Shown here in pieces: positions 35,434 through 54,542 of a stretch of 64,000 nt of DNA. The notes beneath the pieces were generated by a model. That model was given only the letters and a program-made list of their open reading frames with translations, was not told the DNA's origin and searched no databases. The translations under genes and the position numbers were made by a program. Origin of the DNA: Desulfobacterales bacterium (GTDB taxonomy: Bacteria; Desulfobacterota; Desulfobacteria; Desulfobacterales; CAFBRK01); assembly GCA_021737185.1 (NCBI GenBank), contig JAIPEL010000010.1, positions 1-64,000 on the forward strand, given 5' to 3'. Positions within the stretch are counted from its first letter, which is position 1, and the number at the start of each line of letters is the position of its first letter.

Positions 35434-36975
35434 TTAACGAAAGGCACCCTTGTGGAGTGCCCCGGCTGTTTCAACCTCAAACCTGCGCTGCCAGCTTGCC
35501 CCATACTCCCGGTGTGACATTGCCGGAAGCAGGCGGGCCTCCTTATCGTGTCGGCGCTGCCAAAAATACCTGGCGTATCCTGGAAGATAAGGATTCGCGT
35601 CAGCCTTGATCTTAATGTGACGTCTTATGCCTATAGCGCTCAGGCGCACGACTTCGTAGAGTCGCTTGACTTTCTTTGTGGCAGCCGCTACCGCAAACAC
35701 CCAACGCCGCCCGGTGGCAAACCAGTATTTCCGGGCCAGCCATCGTTTGGGCTTGTTCGGGTGGCGGCGGCGGATCATTCGCCACAACTCTTCATAAACA
35801 TAAGTGTCGATTCGACCGAAGGCTTCCGATGATACCACGTGACGGTGGTAGTTGCCCCAGCCTCGAAGCGTCTGGTTCAGCTTCTTGATCAGGGCAGGCA
35901 GCGGAGCGCTCACATGGGAACGGATCAACTTCCCAAGCTTTCCGATGAGGGCGAGGACTCCCTCCTTTGCCGGCGTGATGTGCAATACCTTGCCGTGCTT
36001 TCGGAAGCTCTGGCCGAGGAAGACAAATCCGTCCTTGATATGGGTCATCAAGGTCTTTTCCTCAGAAAGGGATAATCCCCGCTTGGCCAAAAATTCTTCG
36101 ACCACTGGCTTGACCTGCATTTGCAGAACTCGCCTCGATTTGCCGGTTATGATAAAGTCGTCGGCATAGCGGACGAAGTTGACCCTCGACCGTCTGGGCA
36201 CTGCCTCGTGGACAGCCTTCTCCAGTCCGTCGAGTGTCATATTTGACAGCGTGGGACTGATAATCCCGCCCTGCGGTGTCCCCTTGCGCGAGGGAAAGAG
36301 ACGATTTTTCTCCATGTAACCGGATTTAAGCCACCTGAGAAGAACGACCTTGTCCATGGGGATGTTCGAACAGATCCATTCATGGCTGATGTTATCGAAG
36401 CATCCGCAGATATCGGCCTCCAGCACCCAGGGCGCCGAATTCGGCTTGCTTAAGGCGTTGAAGGCTGCGGCAATGGCATCGGCGCAACTGCGCCCCTCCC
36501 GAAATCCGTAAGAATTCCGGTCGGCGGTCGTCTCTGCGATGGGAGCCAGTGCCAGCTTGTAGAGCGCCTGCATGGCGCGATCCCTCATGGTGGGGATACT
36601 CAGCGGTCGCTTCTTGCCGTTCTTTTTCGGTATGTATATCCGTCTCAGTGGGCGCGGCTTGTAGCCGCGGCGGTTTAAGGCTGCAATCGCCCGCCCCTTG
36701 GCTCTGGCGCCTTTCCACAGCACGCCGTCGACGCCCGGGGTGTTTTTCCCCTTGTTTGTGGTGACTCGTCTCACAGCCAGTGCCTTGGCGTAGAACGAGT
36801 TGACCAGCAGGTGTTGCAAGGCCTTCGCCTTGTTCCACCGGCCTTCCTGCACAGCCTTTGCGATACGCATCTGGAGCCGCCTGACTTCGCGGCGGGCCTG
36901 GACCCAGTCGATCCTCTGCCATCTTGCCGCATCGCCGATAGGTGCACCGGCCGAGGCCGTCTTTTGCTTTCCCAT
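35434..36975 (-). CDS. ltrA: Group II intron reverse transcriptase/maturase
   Basis: A 513-residue protein. ATG 36975 follows a GGAGA site; an in-frame ATG 90 bp upstream is an alternative. The RT domain has KGKNTPGVDG, YIPKKNGKKRPLSIPTMRDR, YGFREGRSCADAI, DICGCFDNISHEW, GTPQGGIISPTLSNM and the catalytic FVRYADDFII. The maturase X region (TLRGWGNYHRHVVSSEAFG) is present. The C-terminus ends in basic sequence without a clear HNH endonuclease motif, so retrohoming may be endonuclease-independent or the ORF may be shortened. The N-terminal extension is not that of class C introns. Confidence 0.93.
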   Translation of the reverse strand: MGKQKTASAGAPIGDAARWQRIDWVQARREVRRLQMRIAKAVQEGRWNKAKALQHLLVNSFYAKALAVRRVTTNKGKNTPGVDGVLWKGARAKGRAIAALNRRGYKPRPLRRIYIPKKNGKKRPLSIPTMRDRAMQALYKLALAPIAETTADRNSYGFREGRSCADAIAAAFNALSKPNSAPWVLEADICGCFDNISHEWICSNIPMDKVVLLRWLKSGYMEKNRLFPSRKGTPQGGIISPTLSNMTLDGLEKAVHEAVPRRSRVNFVRYADDFIITGKSRRVLQMQVKPVVEEFLAKRGLSLSEEKTLMTHIKDGFVFLGQSFRKHGKVLHITPAKEGVLALIGKLGKLIRSHVSAPLPALIKKLNQTLRGWGNYHRHVVSSEAFGRIDTYVYEELWRMIRRRHPNKPKRWLARKYWFATGRRWVFAVAAATKKVKRLYEVVRLSAIGIRRHIKIKADANPYLPGYARYFWQRRHDKEARLLPAMSHREYGASWQRRFEVETAGALHKGAFR

Positions 36976-37593
36976 CTTCGAGGGTTCTCCGGATTCTCTC
37001 GCAACGAAACGCCAGTCGGACGTGGGCATGCGGTTCGCCGGCACCGAAGGCACCGGCTTTCGCATTGGACCCTGTTTCAGGCCCTATCCGCCCCATTACA
37101 GGACGGCCTTTGCTTCTTCCGACCTCTCATTGCCGCCCCTTCCTGGGCCTGCCTTACGGTTGGCTTGCCGGGCATTGCACCCGGCGAAGTGGCGGCCTTT
37201 CCACGTTCCACATGTTTACCTGCCGGACAACGTAGGCGGAGCCTGAACGCCGGTGGTTCCACGATTCCGTGCAGACACGTTAGCCGTCTGCAGCCTGACC
37301 ACGCATGCAAACCCAAAGAAGCATGCCTTCGACCTATCGGTTTCCGTTGGTCGGTCGCTCGCTGACGGCGCGTACGGCCCTTCGAATGTTCTCGCCATAT
37401 TGCCCTTTTCCCTAGCCCTTAACCGGAGGAAGCTTCCGGGAAGGTCCTCCTGTTGCCATTCGAACCCGTTTCGGTACATTGTCCGCAAGGCTTCGCACCC
37501 CGTCATCAGCGCAACGGTAGCACGCTTGCGTAGGGAGCTGGTGGGAATACACCAGGTTCATGAATAATGAATATATTCAAGCACATATAAACA

Positions 37594-38001: not shown

Positions 38002-38229
38002 TCATATCCAGGACAAATCAGGCTGGTTGCCGCCAAAGTAGGATTCGATGCATTGTTCCAGCATTCGGAAAGTCGATATTGCTCTTAGCCGGCAAGCCTC
38101 CTTCAATGAAAGTATACGTTCCACCCAGCGGTTTCCTTTTTCGCTTTGGCTGCCCAGACTGCGCTTACGCCACAATACTCCAAAGCGGAGCGACCGTTCA
38201 GCCCGGTTGTTTGTGGGAACCACCCCTGT
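38002..38229 (-). pseudogene. IS66-family transposase C-terminal fragment
   Basis: About 75 codons read VPTNNRAERSLRFGVLWRK, then SQSEKGNRWVERILSLKEAC, the conserved C-terminal block of IS66 transposases. The rest of the transposase and the accessory orfs are absent. The 5' side joins directly to a fragment of the CheB-CheR gene, showing a deletion or recombination junction at about 38230. Confidence 0.75.
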
Positions 38230-45269: not shown

Positions 45270-45488
45270 TTACGCCGGAGCAGCGGCTGCCGCGGTGAGA
45301 CCAATGGCCTCGGCATACTTCAGATAGGTCTCGACAGAAGCCACGACAACTCTTGCTTCAATGGACAACAGCTCAATGCCGACCAGGGAGACCTTGGCCC
45401 AGGCATCAATTACGATTCCTTTGTCCAGAATCCGATCGACGACTTCGGCAAGGCTCGAGGAATCGGTAGACTTGTTAATTTTTGCCAT
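45270..45488 (-). CDS. gvpA: Major gas vesicle wall protein GvpA
   Basis: A 72-residue Gvp[21 protein letters not shown] followed by [20 protein letters not shown] and [15 protein letters not shown] is the canonical amphipathic helix-strand-strand-helix core; the tail is alanine-rich. A GGAGGAAC site lies eight bases before ATG 45488. It polymerises into the gas-permeable, water-excluding shell. The sigma-54 promoter at 45571-45587 should drive it, and the hairpin at 45225 follows it. Confidence 0.97.
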
Positions 45489-45570
45489 GATGTTCCTCCT
45501 TTTGGTTTAAAAAGATTGGGTGAAAAAATTTCTGATTTTCGACTTCAGGCATGCCTGTCTTTTATATTTC

Positions 45571-45587
45571 TGCAATGAGTGTGCCGG
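45571..45587 (-). promoter_or_regulatory. Sigma-54 (-24/-12) promoter of gvpA
   Basis: On the minus strand the site reads CGGCACACTCATTGCA, matching TGGCACN5TTGCW with the invariant GG (45585-45584) and GC (45573-45572) exactly ten bases apart. Transcription would start near 45560, giving a leader of about 72 nt before gvpA. The leader carries the palindrome CAGGCATGCCTG (45546-45557). An NtrC-type activator is encoded in the same locus at 52238. Confidence 0.8.
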
Positions 45588-45765
45588 GCTGGGTACAAAT
45601 GGGCAAAAGCGTCGTGGGGGTCCGGCCCACAGACGGCGATGGCGCTTGGCCTGCCGCGGCCTTGCGGGGTGGCGTGGAAAAAAGCCGGGGGGCGGAATTT
45701 GTAAACTTCTCGGCCGGTCGCCATAAACAGCAACAATGAATCTTCGAAACGAGGGAGTCGACACC

Positions 45766-45781
45766 ATGGCGGAAACGCCAT
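45766..45781. promoter_or_regulatory. Candidate activator site, ATGG-N8-CCAT
   Basis: The palindrome ATGGCGGAAACGCCAT lies about 190 bp upstream of the gvpA -24 element, the usual distance for an enhancer bound by an NtrC-type protein. Two copies of ATGG-N8-CCAT also lie at 54325-54363. It could instead be a hairpin ending the response-regulator transcript. The rest of 45489-45811 shows no gene. Confidence 0.45.
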
Positions 45782-45811
45782 ATTTTACGGGAGTGTGTTC
45801 CCCATATCCGG

Positions 45812-46201
45812 TTACAGAGTGGGAAAAGACGGGATGCTTTCAATGACCTTCAAAATTGTCTCATTTTCAAACGGCTTGGACACGAAACCGTTGATGTGTT
45901 TTTTCTTCAGTGCGGTCTTCACCATCCTATCCCCTTGATAATAATAGCCGGAAACGAGCACGATTCGGATTGAGGGTTGGAGCCGGCGTATTTTCAAGGC
46001 CAATTGCAACCCATCGATATCCGGGAGTTTTGCATCCAGAAAAATCATTTGAAAGTCATCCTTGGACAGCAATTCCAACGCATCCGCACCGCTTAATGCC
46101 CTACGGGCAACCATTCCGCTGTTCTCGACGATGTGCACCAATGCCCAGCACATATCCGGTTCATCATCCACCACGAGGATTTTCGCTTTCCGGGTTGTCA
46201 T
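45812..46201 (-). CDS. CheY-like response regulator of the gvp locus
   Basis: A 129-residue receiver domain from ATG 46201 (AAGGGG site); the frame upstream to 46264 overlaps the kinase stop. ILVVDDEPDMCWALVHIVEN gives the acidic pocket, IFLDAKLPDIDG the acceptor Asp, and GFVSKPFENETI the Lys. No output domain. It follows the PAS kinase gene and precedes gvpA, so kinase and regulator form a pair that may relay signals to the sigma-54 activator. Confidence 0.9.
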   Translation of the reverse strand: MTTRKAKILVVDDEPDMCWALVHIVENSGMVARRALSGADALELLSKDDFQMIFLDAKLPDIDGLQLALKIRRLQPSIRIVLVSGYYYQGDRMVKTALKKKHINGFVSKPFENETILKVIESIPSFPTL

Positions 46202-46263
46202 ATGCCCCTTGTTCTCGTTTGGCCCCTGATCGCCGCCATGGAAAACCGGTAGCGCCGTTCCCA

Positions 46264-47745
46264 TTACTGCGGCAGCGGCAGGGTGATCGTAAATATGGTG
46301 TCCCGGCCTTGATGGCTGGCCACTTCGATGGTGCCGGAATGCTGTTCGATAATCGAAAAACAGATGGAAAGGCCCAGACCAATACCGGTTCCCACCAGTG
46401 ATGTCGTGAAAAACGGGTCGAAGATTTTATCGATGTTTTCCTTTGAAATGCCTTGGCCCGTATCGGCCACCCGAATCAACACTTCGCGGCCTTTTGTCCA
46501 AACCGATACGGTTAGGGTGCCGCCATCAGCCATTGCTTTAATGGCGTTTAACAACAAGTTGACAAACAACTGCTGCAGTTGACCGGCACTGCCTTGGATC
46601 ATCACGGGCTTTGCCGGCAACTCTGGGTTGAATGAAATCTTCTGGAGCTTGATCTCGTTGGAAATCAGCGCAATGGATTCTTTGATCACATCCAACAAAT
46701 TGATCAATTCTTTGACAGATTTCTCAGCAGGTCGGGAAAATTCCAGCAAATTTTCGATCACCTTGCCAGCCCGCTTGATCCCCTTGTGAATTTTACGGGC
46801 ACATTCGATACGAAAATCCGCCGAGATCTCTTTATCTTGAAGAAACTGAGCCGCTGAAGAACAGACCGCCAGCGGATTTCGAATCTCATGGGCGATACCG
46901 CCGGCCATCACGCCCAAAGCGGCAAATTTTTGCGATTGGAGTAGCTGGGCTTCCATTTTTCGGTGCTCGGTATAATCGCGGCCCACCAGGACGATCCCGT
47001 CGATCTCCGAATGCGAATGTTTCATGGGTGAGCAAACCCAGGAAACGTGAAGATTCGCCCCGTTTTTGGTCACCAGGTTCCATTTCCCAATCACCGTTTC
47101 CCTGCGGCCGCTCATTTCTCCCAAAATCCCTTTGACCATTTCCCGGTTGTCGGCCTTGCAGAAGCGGTAAAAATTCCGCCCTTCGACTTCAGCAAAAGAG
47201 TAACCGGAGATCCGTTCGGCCGCCGGGTTCCATGACAGAATTTTTCCGTCTGTATCGGTGGACAGTATGATATCGCTGGCGCTCTCGAATATGCTCGCAA
47301 GATGGCGTTGAACCCTCTGAATCTCTTCGCTCAAATTCACTTGTTTGGTCACATCGTCCATCAACAGCATGACGTTTTTAACAGACTCCTGCCAATGGAC
47401 CGGGGTAATGCGATAATAGTAAGTCCGTGTGGAAATACCGGGCGATCGAAAGATTATCCGTTGCCCTTTGAAGGGACAATTTGACCGGAACGCCCGGCGA
47501 ACCTGGTTGATGATATCAGTCTTTTCGACAATGATGTCAGGGAAAATTTTCTGCAGGGGGTAACCGACGGTGTCGGATATTGATCGGCGCATTTTTTCCA
47601 GAAAATTACGATTGGCCAGGACAATGCACAGATTCTTGTCGATGATCAATACCGACGAGGGCATTGTATCCAGCAGCATGGCATTCATTTTTTCATGCCA
47701 GCCGCTACCATTGCTGCCAGTATCCTTTTTTTGACTTGATCCCAT
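46264..47745 (-). CDS. PAS histidine kinase of the gvp locus
   Basis: A 493-residue cytoplasmic kinase. ATG 47745 is chosen for its GGGAGG site; frames further upstream overlap the gvpF/L gene region. Two PAS domains (about 20-130, MPSSVLIIDKNLCIVLANRN, and about 140-265, DGKILSWNPAAERISGYSF) precede HisKA (GGIAHEIRNPLAVCSSAAQF) and HATPase (TGIGLGLSICFSIIEQH). The HExRNP type and lack of membrane segments fit NtrB-like sensing of an internal signal. Probable partner: the receiver encoded next, at 45812. Confidence 0.92.
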   Translation of the reverse strand: MGSSQKKDTGSNGSGWHEKMNAMLLDTMPSSVLIIDKNLCIVLANRNFLEKMRRSISDTVGYPLQKIFPDIIVEKTDIINQVRRAFRSNCPFKGQRIIFRSPGISTRTYYYRITPVHWQESVKNVMLLMDDVTKQVNLSEEIQRVQRHLASIFESASDIILSTDTDGKILSWNPAAERISGYSFAEVEGRNFYRFCKADNREMVKGILGEMSGRRETVIGKWNLVTKNGANLHVSWVCSPMKHSHSEIDGIVLVGRDYTEHRKMEAQLLQSQKFAALGVMAGGIAHEIRNPLAVCSSAAQFLQDKEISADFRIECARKIHKGIKRAGKVIENLLEFSRPAEKSVKELINLLDVIKESIALISNEIKLQKISFNPELPAKPVMIQGSAGQLQQLFVNLLLNAIKAMADGGTLTVSVWTKGREVLIRVADTGQGISKENIDKIFDPFFTTSLVGTGIGLGLSICFSIIEQHSGTIEVASHQGRDTIFTITLPLPQ

Positions 47746-47800
47746 CCAGTCAGGCCTCCCGGCCGCTTCAACCCTGGCCGGCCACCCGGCGCGATACTTG

Positions 47801-48616
47801 TTACCCAAGATGCCGCATGTGGTGATCGTCCACAACGAAGTTATACGGCGGCCACGGGCCGCTGAGCATCATCCGTTCGTCTTTCCGGTTATCGAGTTGG
47901 TAAAAAATTTCCTTGAAGCGCGTCAAATCCCCATTGGGGACCAGAAAGAACAAGGAAAGCAACCATTGCGGATTGCAACACCCGGGCTTTGCATTGCAAA
48001 GGGATGATGGCTGGGTTGCTTTCAGCTCGTTTTCCGATTTGAATTTAACAAAGATGCCGGAAAACGCCGATCGGTATTGTTCAATAATCGTTTTAATGAA
48101 TGGGTTGTTTCGGTCTTGCCCATCGTACAGCGCCTTTCGTTGATTCAGGTACGCCCGGCCGGTGATTTTGGATCTTGGATTTTGGATTTTAGATTCCGAA
48201 TTCCTTACATCATCCCCGATAAATCGGGATCTACGCTTCGCTCCGGCAATCTTCAATCGACAATCTTCAATCAATAACCGGATGCCCATTTCCACACAAC
48301 CGTCCAACTCCGACAGCAGGCGGTGATAGCGCGGGGCATTTTCCTTCAAATGGTAACCGATCCGGGATTTGTCGGCAATCACATTCCCGTAACGCAGGGG
48401 GATGACGGCTTGCCGGGCGAAAAACGCGGCGATCACGTTTTCAAAACGCTGCAGCACACCGATGCTCACCGGCGATTCGGAAGTGTTCATGGCCGAGACA
48501 GCCGTGTTGAGTCCGTTGTACGACACAACCTCCACCGGCCGCCCGTCGATTCCCGACAAGGCTGTGGCGGGCTGATTTTTCATATCTGCGAATATGCAAT
48601 ACATAAGATAGCTCAT
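47801..48616 (-). CDS. GvpF/GvpL family protein carrying a repeat-derived insert
   Basis: A 271-residue GvpF/L protein from ATG 48616 (GAGGGG site). Typical parts are MSYLMYCIFADM, VIPLRYGNVI, EMGIRLLIED and the C-terminal SGPWPPYNFV. Between about residues 113 and 150 it contains DCRLKIAGAKRRSRFIGDDV and NSESKIQNPRSK, which read an intergenic-type repeat, so the insert is an in-frame acquisition between two conserved blocks. Whether the protein still works is unclear. A short Cys stretch (CNAKPGCCNPQ) lies near residue 210. Confidence 0.82.
   Translation of the reverse strand: MSYLMYCIFADMKNQPATALSGIDGRPVEVVSYNGLNTAVSAMNTSESPVSIGVLQRFENVIAAFFARQAVIPLRYGNVIADKSRIGYHLKENAPRYHRLLSELDGCVEMGIRLLIEDCRLKIAGAKRRSRFIGDDVRNSESKIQNPRSKITGRAYLNQRKALYDGQDRNNPFIKTIIEQYRSAFSGIFVKFKSENELKATQPSSLCNAKPGCCNPQWLLSLFFLVPNGDLTRFKEIFYQLDNRKDERMMLSGPWPPYNFVVDDHHMRHLG
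48163..48277. repeat. Repeat inserted in frame in a gvpF/L gene
   Basis: The segment has TTGGATTTTGGATTTTAGA at one side, a CCCGATAAATCGGG hairpin in the middle, and CAATCTTCAATCGACAATCT at the other. Similar GAAGAATGA/GACGATTGACG text occurs between genes at 56240-56280. It keeps the reading frame open for about 38 codons. Confidence 0.7.
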
Positions 48617-52237: not shown

Positions 52238-53635
52238 TCAAAGCCCCAATTTTTTAATCTTGGTAAGTATGGTTTTATAATCGATCTGCAGTTTCCGCGC
52301 GGCTTTGGCTTTATTTCCCCCCGTTGCCTGCAAGGTGCGGGTTAAAACCTGCCTTTCCACCGCTGCCGTACTTTCACGGACGATGGCCTTAAAGGAAACT
52401 TCTTTTTCCTGCGACAGTTCGTTTATCATTTCAGGCAATATGCCACAGGGCATCTCATTGCCTCTTTGGCGAATATCCAGGTGATCTCTGGTGATGAGCT
52501 TGTCGGCAAGAAGCACTGCCCGGCGCACGGTGGACCGCAATTCCCGCACGTTTCCCGGCCAATCGTAATTGAGCAGCATATCGAGGGCGTTTTCGGAAAA
52601 TCCCTTCTCATCCTTGTTCAATTCGCTGCAGGTGATATCAAGAAACCGTTTGGCCAGATACAGGATATCATCCTTTCGCTGACGCAGGGGGGGGATGGTT
52701 ATGGAAAATTCCCGCAACCGATAAAGGAGATCGCTTCGGAAAAGGCCTTTTTCGGTAAGGCTGGAAAGATCCTGGTTGGCGGCGACCAACAGGCGAACGT
52801 CTATGGGGTGCGGTGTCTTGCCGCCCACAGGATACACTTTTCTTTCTTGAATCACCCGCAACAGTTTGGCCTGGGATGGCAGCGGCAAATTGGAAATCTC
52901 ATCCAAAAACAGCGTGCCGCCGCTGGCGGCGGCCATGAGACCGACCGTCTTTTGCACGGCGCCGGTAAAAGCGCCTTTTTCATGTCCGAACAGTTCGCTT
53001 TCCAGGAGTGCTTCCGGGATGGCCCCGCAATCCAACGGCACAAAGGACTTTTCGGCACGCAAACTGGCCTTGTGGATCGCCTGGGCCACAATTTCTTTTC
53101 CGGATCCGGTTTCACCCTGGAGCACGACGGTGAATTCGGATTGAGCGACCTGGTTGATCTGGCCAACCAGATATCCCACCGCCTCACTGGGTCCCATCAC
53201 ATCCCTCAGGGGGCTGTCCTGATTCATATGGCTGACCAGATTTTTCAGCTTCCGTTTGAGTTTTCTTTCCGACAGGGATCTTTGAACCAAACGAAGCACA
53301 TCATCATGGTCAAAGGGTTTGGCAAGATAATCGTATGCCCCGTGCTTGATCGCTTCGACCGCTCCCTGAATTTCACCAAAAGCGGTAATGATAATGACAG
53401 GAAGGTCAGGGTCAATTTCTTTTGAACGGGCCAGAACCTCATCGCCGTCCATTTCGGGCATTTTCATGTCCAGCAGCATCACATCCGGCCAATGGGAACG
53501 GATAGCGTCAATGGCGGGTACACCGTCATTTGCCACAATCGTTTTGAACCCTTCCTTTTCCATGAGCTTTGCAAGCATCCGGCAAATGTTATCATCATCG
53601 TCCACGATTAAAATCTTAACACTCGCTCGGTCCAT
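52238..53635 (-). CDS. NtrC-family sigma-54 response regulator of the gvp locus
   Basis: A 465-residue activator from ATG 53635. REC domain about 5-120 (KILIVDDDDNICRMLAKLME, MLLDMKMPEMDG). AAA+ domain about 140-375 with LQGETGSGKEIVAQAIH, the sigma-54-contacting GAFTGA in HEKGAFTGAVQK, and GTLFLDEISNLPLPSQ. The C-terminal Fis-type helix-turn-helix is NKAKAARKLQIDYKTILTK. All parts needed to activate sigma-54 polymerase are intact. The likely target is the gvpA promoter at 45571. It is 17 bp upstream of hsp20 on the same strand. Confidence 0.95.
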   Translation of the reverse strand: MDRASVKILIVDDDDNICRMLAKLMEKEGFKTIVANDGVPAIDAIRSHWPDVMLLDMKMPEMDGDEVLARSKEIDPDLPVIIITAFGEIQGAVEAIKHGAYDYLAKPFDHDDVLRLVQRSLSERKLKRKLKNLVSHMNQDSPLRDVMGPSEAVGYLVGQINQVAQSEFTVVLQGETGSGKEIVAQAIHKASLRAEKSFVPLDCGAIPEALLESELFGHEKGAFTGAVQKTVGLMAAASGGTLFLDEISNLPLPSQAKLLRVIQERKVYPVGGKTPHPIDVRLLVAANQDLSSLTEKGLFRSDLLYRLREFSITIPPLRQRKDDILYLAKRFLDITCSELNKDEKGFSENALDMLLNYDWPGNVRELRSTVRRAVLLADKLITRDHLDIRQRGNEMPCGILPEMINELSQEKEVSFKAIVRESTAAVERQVLTRTLQATGGNKAKAARKLQIDYKTILTKIKKLGL

Positions 53636-53673
53636 GGCTACTGCTCCGTCTACCTCCTGCTCCTTGCTCTGCC

Positions 53674-54285
53674 TCAAGAAGCTGCGGGTTTTCCAATCGG
53701 ATAGATCAAGTGAATATCTTGCTCGAAAAACGGCTCGGGCCTATGAAGCACCCCTAAAAAGAGGATCCCCGTATCCCCCTTTGGAAGGGTTTGGTTGACA
53801 CGCTGACCAATATAGCGGTCACGCGCATGGAGCAGCGAATCTGCCGATGCCTTCCGGCGCGTGTCCGTTTCAGTCTTCTCCGTCGGATGGCCGTTTTCGA
53901 GGATATGTTTGTAATGCTCGTATTCCTTGATCAATAGTTCCGCGGACTCGGTACCCATAAGCGTTGCGCCGTTTTCGGTCATCCGCAGCAGCAACTGATG
54001 GTTCCGGCTGCCCTTGGCCGCCAATTCCTCAACAATATCGAGTTCATGTCCGCAAACCGGCAAACTGTCCTGGTACAACCGGACGCTGCCATAATCCAGG
54101 TCCAACCCGGTGACCGCCGATTCGATATCGATCCATATTTGATCGATGGCAGATGCCTTGCGTTGCTGAGATGTTTTCCCGTTGATTTGGCGATGGGTCC
54201 GATGAATCGATCGGCCCAAAACACCCAGGTCGGCCTGCGTATGCACGACAGGGATGTAAATCAAAGTCCTCGAAAAGGCTTTCAC
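53674..54285 (-). CDS. Conserved-looking protein of unknown function
   Basis: A 203-residue protein with no signal peptide or membrane helix. It starts MKAFSRTLIYIPVVHTQADL and contains GLDLDYGSVRLYQDSLPVCG, NHQLLLRMTENGATLMGTES, ELLIKEYEHYKH and GVLHRPEPFFEQDIHLIYP. The DxDYG, CGxE-like and GTES segments look like an active site, but I know no named family. It precedes the sigma-54 activator gene by 38 bp, and two tandem palindromes lie just upstream, so it is probably cotranscribed and regulated with it. Confidence 0.75.
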   Translation of the reverse strand: MKAFSRTLIYIPVVHTQADLGVLGRSIHRTHRQINGKTSQQRKASAIDQIWIDIESAVTGLDLDYGSVRLYQDSLPVCGHELDIVEELAAKGSRNHQLLLRMTENGATLMGTESAELLIKEYEHYKHILENGHPTEKTETDTRRKASADSLLHARDRYIGQRVNQTLPKGDTGILFLGVLHRPEPFFEQDIHLIYPIGKPAAS

Positions 54286-54324
54286 GGTTGAACCTCAAAT
54301 ATGAGACGGATATGTAAAGTTCTC

Positions 54325-54363
54325 TATGGAAAAATTTCCATATTGTATGGAATCATTTCCATA
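54325..54363. promoter_or_regulatory. Two tandem 18-bp palindromic operators
   Basis: TATGGAAAAATTTCCATA (54325-54342) and TATGGAATCATTTCCATA (54346-54363) lie 21 bp apart start to start, two helical turns, about 40-80 bp upstream of the gene at 53674. Both fit ATGG-N8-CCAT, as does the site upstream of gvpA at 45766. A dimeric regulator probably binds both on one face of the DNA. The flanking 54364-54542 shows no gene. Confidence 0.7.
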
Positions 54364-54542
54364 TTTCAAACACATTTAAAACGGATTGTGGGTGGGGTCT
54401 CCGCAGCCGATATCCGGCACTGTTTCCTCCTTTTATGGCATTGGCGGTCAATCCCAACACTTCATCCGGTGCCCGGCAATGCCACCTGTTCGAACCAATT
54501 CTTAGCAATTTGTATACCGCCGTCTTGCTTCCGCACATGGTA

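Follow-up and report, generated by a model that had tools for sequence, protein, structure and literature searches.

A candidate sigma-54 promoter and a shared palindrome point to GvrA control of gas-vesicle genes in a Desulfobacterales bacterium

In the 64-kb stretch of DNA analysed here (hereafter the window), which belongs to a Desulfobacterales genome of 4.5 Mb, the main gas-vesicle gene gvpA is preceded by a candidate sigma-54 (-24/-12) promoter, and a 20-bp palindrome, CTATGGAAnnnnTTCCATAG, occurs both upstream of gvpA and at the gvrA-operon promoter. From the sequence and its comparison with related loci, we hold it very probable that gvpA has a sigma-54 promoter, with the activator GvrA working from the upstream palindrome and also controlling its own synthesis at the gvrA operon. 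The sigma-54/GvrA logic of gvpA is already published for Serratia sp. ATCC 39006; the palindrome shared by the gvpA and gvrA-operon promoters appears to be new, and our searches of the open-access literature turned up no account of a DNA site bound by GvrA.

Organization of the gas-vesicle locus

The locus is read on the minus strand, where a gene for a 203-aa protein is followed by gvrA, an Hsp20 gene (gvpH), a CDC48-like ATPase gene (gvpZ), two gvpF genes, gvrB and gvrC; after the candidate promoter come gvpA, a coiled-coil gvpC-like gene, gvpN, one further gene, gvpF and gvpG, and the order ends with an ArsA-like gene, a GvpA-family gene, gvpK and a third GvpA-family gene. The genes that matter for regulation are the following:

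45270..45488, minus strand: gvpA, main gas vesicle protein (PF00741)
45812..46264, minus strand: gvrC-like gene, single receiver domain (PF00072)
46264..47835, minus strand: gvrB-like gene, PAS histidine kinase (PF00989, PF00512, PF02518)
52238..53677, minus strand: gvrA-like activator gene, receiver / sigma-54 AAA+ / Fis HTH (PF00072, PF00158, PF02954); the start may be 53635 instead of 53677
53674..54285, minus strand: conserved 203-aa gene opening the gvrA operon, with homologues at the same place in GvrA loci

The initial annotation had read a complete NtrC-type activator with GAFTGA from the locus, and the domain analysis agrees, given that the GvrA found here has the receiver-AAA+-Fis-HTH architecture and carries GAFTGA, a Walker A motif and a Fis-type HTH, that is, all the features of an NtrC-type enhancer-binding protein. 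The similarity of GvrA among the loci compared is clear, and the genome encodes one RpoN (PF04552 at G000:C154, E 1.3e-62). No Pfam family scored over its cut-off in the 203-aa protein, homologues of which were also seen near gvp genes in a second GvrA clade.

The -24/-12 element upstream of gvpA

The candidate promoter lies inside the 323-bp gvrC-gvpA intergenic region:

45571..45586, minus strand: candidate sigma-54 -24/-12 promoter of the gvpA operon, CGGCACACTCATTGCA, from matrix scan, conserved position and motif discovery

This 16-base element is read on the minus strand from 45586 to 45571 in the context CCCAGCC CGGCAC ACTCA TTGCA GAAATATAAAAG; the site had been annotated as 45571-45587, which placed it correctly and ran one base too far, 45586 being the right end. 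It fits the TGGCAC-N5-TTGC-like pattern of sigma-54 promoters, with the invariant GG and GC exactly ten bases apart, as first claimed, and departs twice from TGGCACG-N4-TTGCW, with T to C at the first base and G to A at the seventh. The gvpA ATG at 45488, preceded by AAAGGAGGAA as ribosome-binding site, is 82 bp downstream of the end of CGGCACACTCATTGCA, in line with the original estimate of about 85 bp, and the transcription start would be expected near 45560.

The scan with a sigma-54 weight matrix, an approximate one with frequencies following the published consensus, put the annotated site first among all matches in the 64 kb, both strands included (15.6; runner-up 13.2), and its score was not reached in any of 100 shuffles of the 350-bp gvpA upstream region. 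By its letters alone, CGGCACACTCATTGCA is not above chance for 64 kb: the window contains 7 sites within two mismatches of TGGCACGN4TTGCW vs. about 10 expected, chance would give the exact pattern YGGCAY-N5-TTGCW 0.29 times in the 64-kb window, and with a matrix learnt from relatives alone, CGGCACACTCATTGCA ranks about sixth in the window. Because the letters are unremarkable, the case for CGGCACACTCATTGCA rests on its position, strand and conservation.

A coincidental -24/-12 match, with gvpA transcription coming from a sigma-70 promoter or running on from gvrC, would accord with these chance-level letters and with the co-directional arrangement of gvrC and gvpA, between which no terminator-like site was found. 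We nevertheless regard this as very improbable, given that no sigma-70-like promoter was found on the gvpA strand of the gvrC-gvpA intergenic region, that Serratia has no read-through between the two operons (PMC4982088) and that position, strand and sequence of the element are conserved across relatives and tied to GvrA. A search for IHF sites with 8/9 matches found none, and a repeat search of the intergenic region returned a GTCGAC palindrome alone; the candidate enhancer near gvpA became visible only through the comparison of loci.

Conservation of the sigma-54 site among gas-vesicle loci

The comparison covered 38 gvpA loci from public genomes, 20 more regions from a class-wide search, and later additions; a linked GvrA was defined as a match of at least 250 bits, and a promoter was called at a score of 12 or more, at most 1 kb upstream of gvpA and on the gvpA strand. 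By these definitions, a -24/-12 site precedes gvpA in 21 of the 22 GvrA-linked loci vs. 5 of the 26 without a linked GvrA (Fisher p 6e-8, indicative only, since the loci are related and the counts therefore not independent), while the controls in the GvrA-linked loci gave 2/22 on the reverse strand and 0/22 in the 1 kb downstream. Three of the five unlinked exceptions (L008, L010 and L012) have a GvrA homologue of 44-50% identity elsewhere in the genome, and those of L010 and L012 sit inside further gvp loci; L120, which speaks against the GvrA model, has a strong sigma-54 site without the palindrome and without a GvrA within 10 kb. None of the cyanobacterial loci examined had a -24/-12 site before gvpA. 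The distance from the site to gvpA is 62-114 bp in most loci of the window's own type; in the second GvrA clade (L078, L080, L086-L088 and L090), it is 515-758 bp, with a receiver gene between the site and gvpA where checked.

Motif discovery on the upstream regions, carried out without the window and without a prior matrix, returned TGGCAcgnnnntTGCn (TGGCAcg-N4-tTGC), with an LLR of 92.9 vs. 41-50 for shuffled sets, and this relatives-only motif selects CGGCACACTCATTGCA when applied to the window. It also agrees with the sigma-54 consensus of Desulfovibrio vulgaris, tGGcacg / tTGCt (PMC4641369). Sigma-54 control of gvpA, first proposed from the window, is thus supported by the conserved position of the site, its tracking of GvrA, motif discovery without the window and the encoded RpoN, which takes sigma-54 regulation of flotation beyond one enterobacterium, to Desulfobacterales and other phyla.

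A palindrome shared by the gvpA and gvrA-operon upstream regions

A search for palindromic motifs in the 260 bp preceding the sigma-54 sites yielded CtATGGAAtcgaTTCCATaG (CTATGGAAn4TTCCATAG; LLR 88.6 vs. 28-33 for shuffled sets), and all loci were then scanned with a matrix whose training had left out the window. In most relatives, the best matches fell in two places, one upstream of gvpA and the other about 700-800 bp before gvrA, the latter position being just ahead of the conserved 203-aa gene. The window has the following copies, besides a third, weaker overlapping palindrome (score 12.4) at the gvrA-operon promoter:

45764..45783, minus strand: candidate GvrA enhancer half 1, degenerate, ATATGGCGTTTCCGCCATGG, score 10.6
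45750..45769, minus strand: candidate GvrA enhancer half 2, degenerate, overlapping half 1, CCATGGTGTCGACTCCCTCG, score 10.5
54345..54364, minus strand: strong palindrome at the gvrA-operon promoter, ATATGGAAATGATTCCATAC, score 21.5
54324..54343, minus strand: strong palindrome at the gvrA-operon promoter, ATATGGAAATTTTTCCATAG, score 21.0

Pairs of palindromes spaced by 14 bp occur at two places only in the 64 kb, on the gvpA side and on the gvrA side, and the same arrangement recurs in L009, L010, L025, L074, L077 and L125. The candidate upstream activator site, a clear palindrome in most relatives, is degenerate in the window, where the gvpA-side block has a p of 0.043. A leave-one-out test found the gvpA-side palindrome in all loci except L005, weakly in L006, and the equal or better copies elsewhere in a locus were mostly the gvrA-side ones. 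In a pattern search of the whole genome, the core TATGGAAN4TTCCATA with at most one mismatch occurred only at the gvrA-operon promoter. The centre of the candidate enhancer is about 190 bp from the promoter here, a distance that suits an enhancer for a sigma-54 activator.

A related palindrome, GgTAnGGCAncgnTGCCnTAcC, stands in the same register in the second GvrA clade (LLR 66.8 vs. 23-29 for shuffled sets), and the recognition region of GvrA differs between the two clades, DYKTLLRKMK vs. DYKTIHTKIK, which is expected if GvrA reads the palindrome, although it is not proof. The loci with this variant palindrome are L078, L080, L086, L087, L088, L090 and L091. The matrix scan found no palindrome in the right place in the Bacteroidota loci and L031, and for the Bacteroidota loci this is consistent with the different HTH of their GvrA-like proteins. 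GvrA is the candidate reader because the palindrome is locus-specific and present at both promoters, and because the locus encodes one recognised DNA-binding regulator; the palindrome is therefore probably a GvrA enhancer and autoregulatory operator, and it gives GvrA, a protein whose precise role was left open by the Serratia authors, a specific candidate target on the DNA.

It could also be that gvpA is sigma-54 dependent and that the palindrome is read by an unlinked regulator (e.g., of the LacI or LuxR type) coupling gas vesicles to metabolism, with GvrA using another site. Several unlinked regulators do affect the Serratia cluster, and SmaR represses the gvpA1 promoter there, but this explanation seems unlikely to us, given that perfect palindrome cores occur genome-wide at this locus only, unlike what a global regulator would show, and that the palindrome is found in loci with GvrA, changes along with the GvrA recognition region and was not found in the Bacteroidota loci, with their different GvrA-like HTH.

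The gvrA-operon promoter and autoregulation

At the head of the gvrA operon, the first strong palindrome of the window takes up exactly the spacer between the two elements of a sigma-70-like promoter:

54342..54369, minus strand: sigma-70-like promoter of the gvrA operon, TTGAAA-16-TACAAT, 10/12 matches

One comparable promoter is expected in 0.5 of shuffled regions, and we treat this one as a lead only. Because the palindrome overlaps the promoter core, autorepression of the gvrA operon is suggested, with GvrA restraining its own synthesis as NtrC does. At glnA, one regulator with one palindrome type, NtrC, holds back sigma-70 promoters and switches on a sigma-54 promoter; the GvrA case differs in operator sequence, target genes and signal.

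The opposite sign, in which the gvrA-operon palindrome would serve positive autoregulation as a downstream enhancer for a sigma-54 promoter lying upstream of it, is a possibility that we rate clearly below autorepression. It draws on sigma-54-like sites upstream of the gvrA-side palindrome in L074, L076 and L009, on a weak one here at 54519 (CGGTATACAAATTGCT) and on the strong ones before gvrA in L088 and L091, of the other clade (score 18.1). Weighing against it are the palindrome-filled spacer of the 10/12 promoter in the window, the sigma-70 elements at the Serratia gvrA start (PMC4982088) and the unchanged gvrA expression in a Serratia rpoN mutant (PMC11778176). The strong sites in L088 and L091 lie about 2-3 kb upstream of gvpA, and a further one before gvrA in L078 lies at -2783 (scores of 16.5-18.1 among the three loci); in some lineages, the activator gene may be driven by a sigma-54 promoter.

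Comparison with known systems

In Serratia sp. ATCC 39006, the gvpA1 start was mapped by 5'RACE and has a sigma-54 match, and GvrA is required for gvpA1 expression (PMC4982088); gvpA1 transcription is reduced in an rpoN mutant, according to PMC11778176, which cites a thesis for it. The order gvrA-gvpH-gvpZ-gvpF-gvpF-gvrB-gvrC next to the gvpA operon is common to Serratia and the window, and gvr operons had already been drawn in several Proteobacteria, including Desulfomonile (PMC4982088). In contrast to Serratia, the gvr genes here precede gvpA and run in one direction with it, the gvr operon begins with an extra 203-aa gene, a palindrome common to both promoters is identified and the gvpA promoter is a candidate read from sequence.

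A AAACGTTT motif before Serratia gvrA was assigned to RbsR, yet it is unbound by RbsR (PMC5601083). The letters of AAACGTTT are the core of the palindrome in locus L076 (GGAAACGTTTCC), and because of this identity we conjecture that the Serratia site may be GvrA's. On balance, we favour, with some reserve, a common switch of Serratia-type clusters in several phyla, in which one palindromic operator family read by GvrA would serve as gvpA enhancer and gvrA-operon operator and would drift with the GvrA recognition helix; if true, this could explain why RbsR does not bind its supposed site.

The sigma-54 regulons of Desulfovibrio vulgaris resemble the present case in their tGGcacg / tTGCt consensus, in their response-regulator activators with GAFTGA and in upstream activating sequences placed at least 100 bp away from the promoter; a gas-vesicle target, GvrA or the GvrA palindrome was not found in the portion of the paper available to us (PMC4641369).

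Proposed mechanism

The analysis shows the sequence elements, how far they are conserved, that they occur together with GvrA and that RpoN is encoded; we infer GvrA binding to the palindrome, the sign of the autoregulation and the signal, and the whole would work as follows. The histidine kinase GvrB, possibly with GvrC, would activate GvrA (52238-53677), the signal input of GvrB being suggested by its domains; the Serratia cluster responds to low oxygen (PMC11778176). Activated GvrA would bind the candidate palindrome at 45783-45750, about 190 bp upstream, and loop to the closed complex of sigma-54 RNA polymerase at the -24/-12 element 45586-45571, which its GAFTGA AAA+ domain would open for transcription of the gvpA operon. 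Through the strong palindrome in the sigma-70-like promoter region 54369-54324, GvrA would probably also control, and most likely restrain, its own synthesis. For designers of gas-vesicle reporters, this arrangement is a candidate native on-switch.

Additional observations

A GCATGC element lies 11-15 bases past the -12 element in 7/32 sequences vs. about 0.4 expected, the other loci being L007, L010, L073, L075, L077 and L125:

45546-45557, minus strand: GCATGC element, here as CAGGCATGCCTG, mostly GGCATGCC among loci

It would overlie the first transcribed bases and may act as an operator or as a 5' RNA element.

Serratia-type gvp clusters whose GvpA is 86-93% identical were seen in MAGs that carry the labels Terriglobia, Acidobacteria and Phycisphaerales (L005, L006 and L011), which may reflect horizontal transfer or a binning error. 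Lamprocystis purpurea (L012, L123 and L124) has five near-identical gvpA copies on different contigs, and all three copies examined have the sigma-54 site and the palindrome; a class search around its genome yielded four gvp genomes only.

An ORF at 35434-37065 (minus strand), adjoining the end of the gvp cluster, carries a YADD motif and is maturase-like in its C-terminal part; on reading its sequence, it looks like a group II intron reverse transcriptase. A short ORF at 38002-38223 (minus strand), likewise judged from its sequence, is similar to the C terminus of an IS66-type transposase and is probably a remnant.
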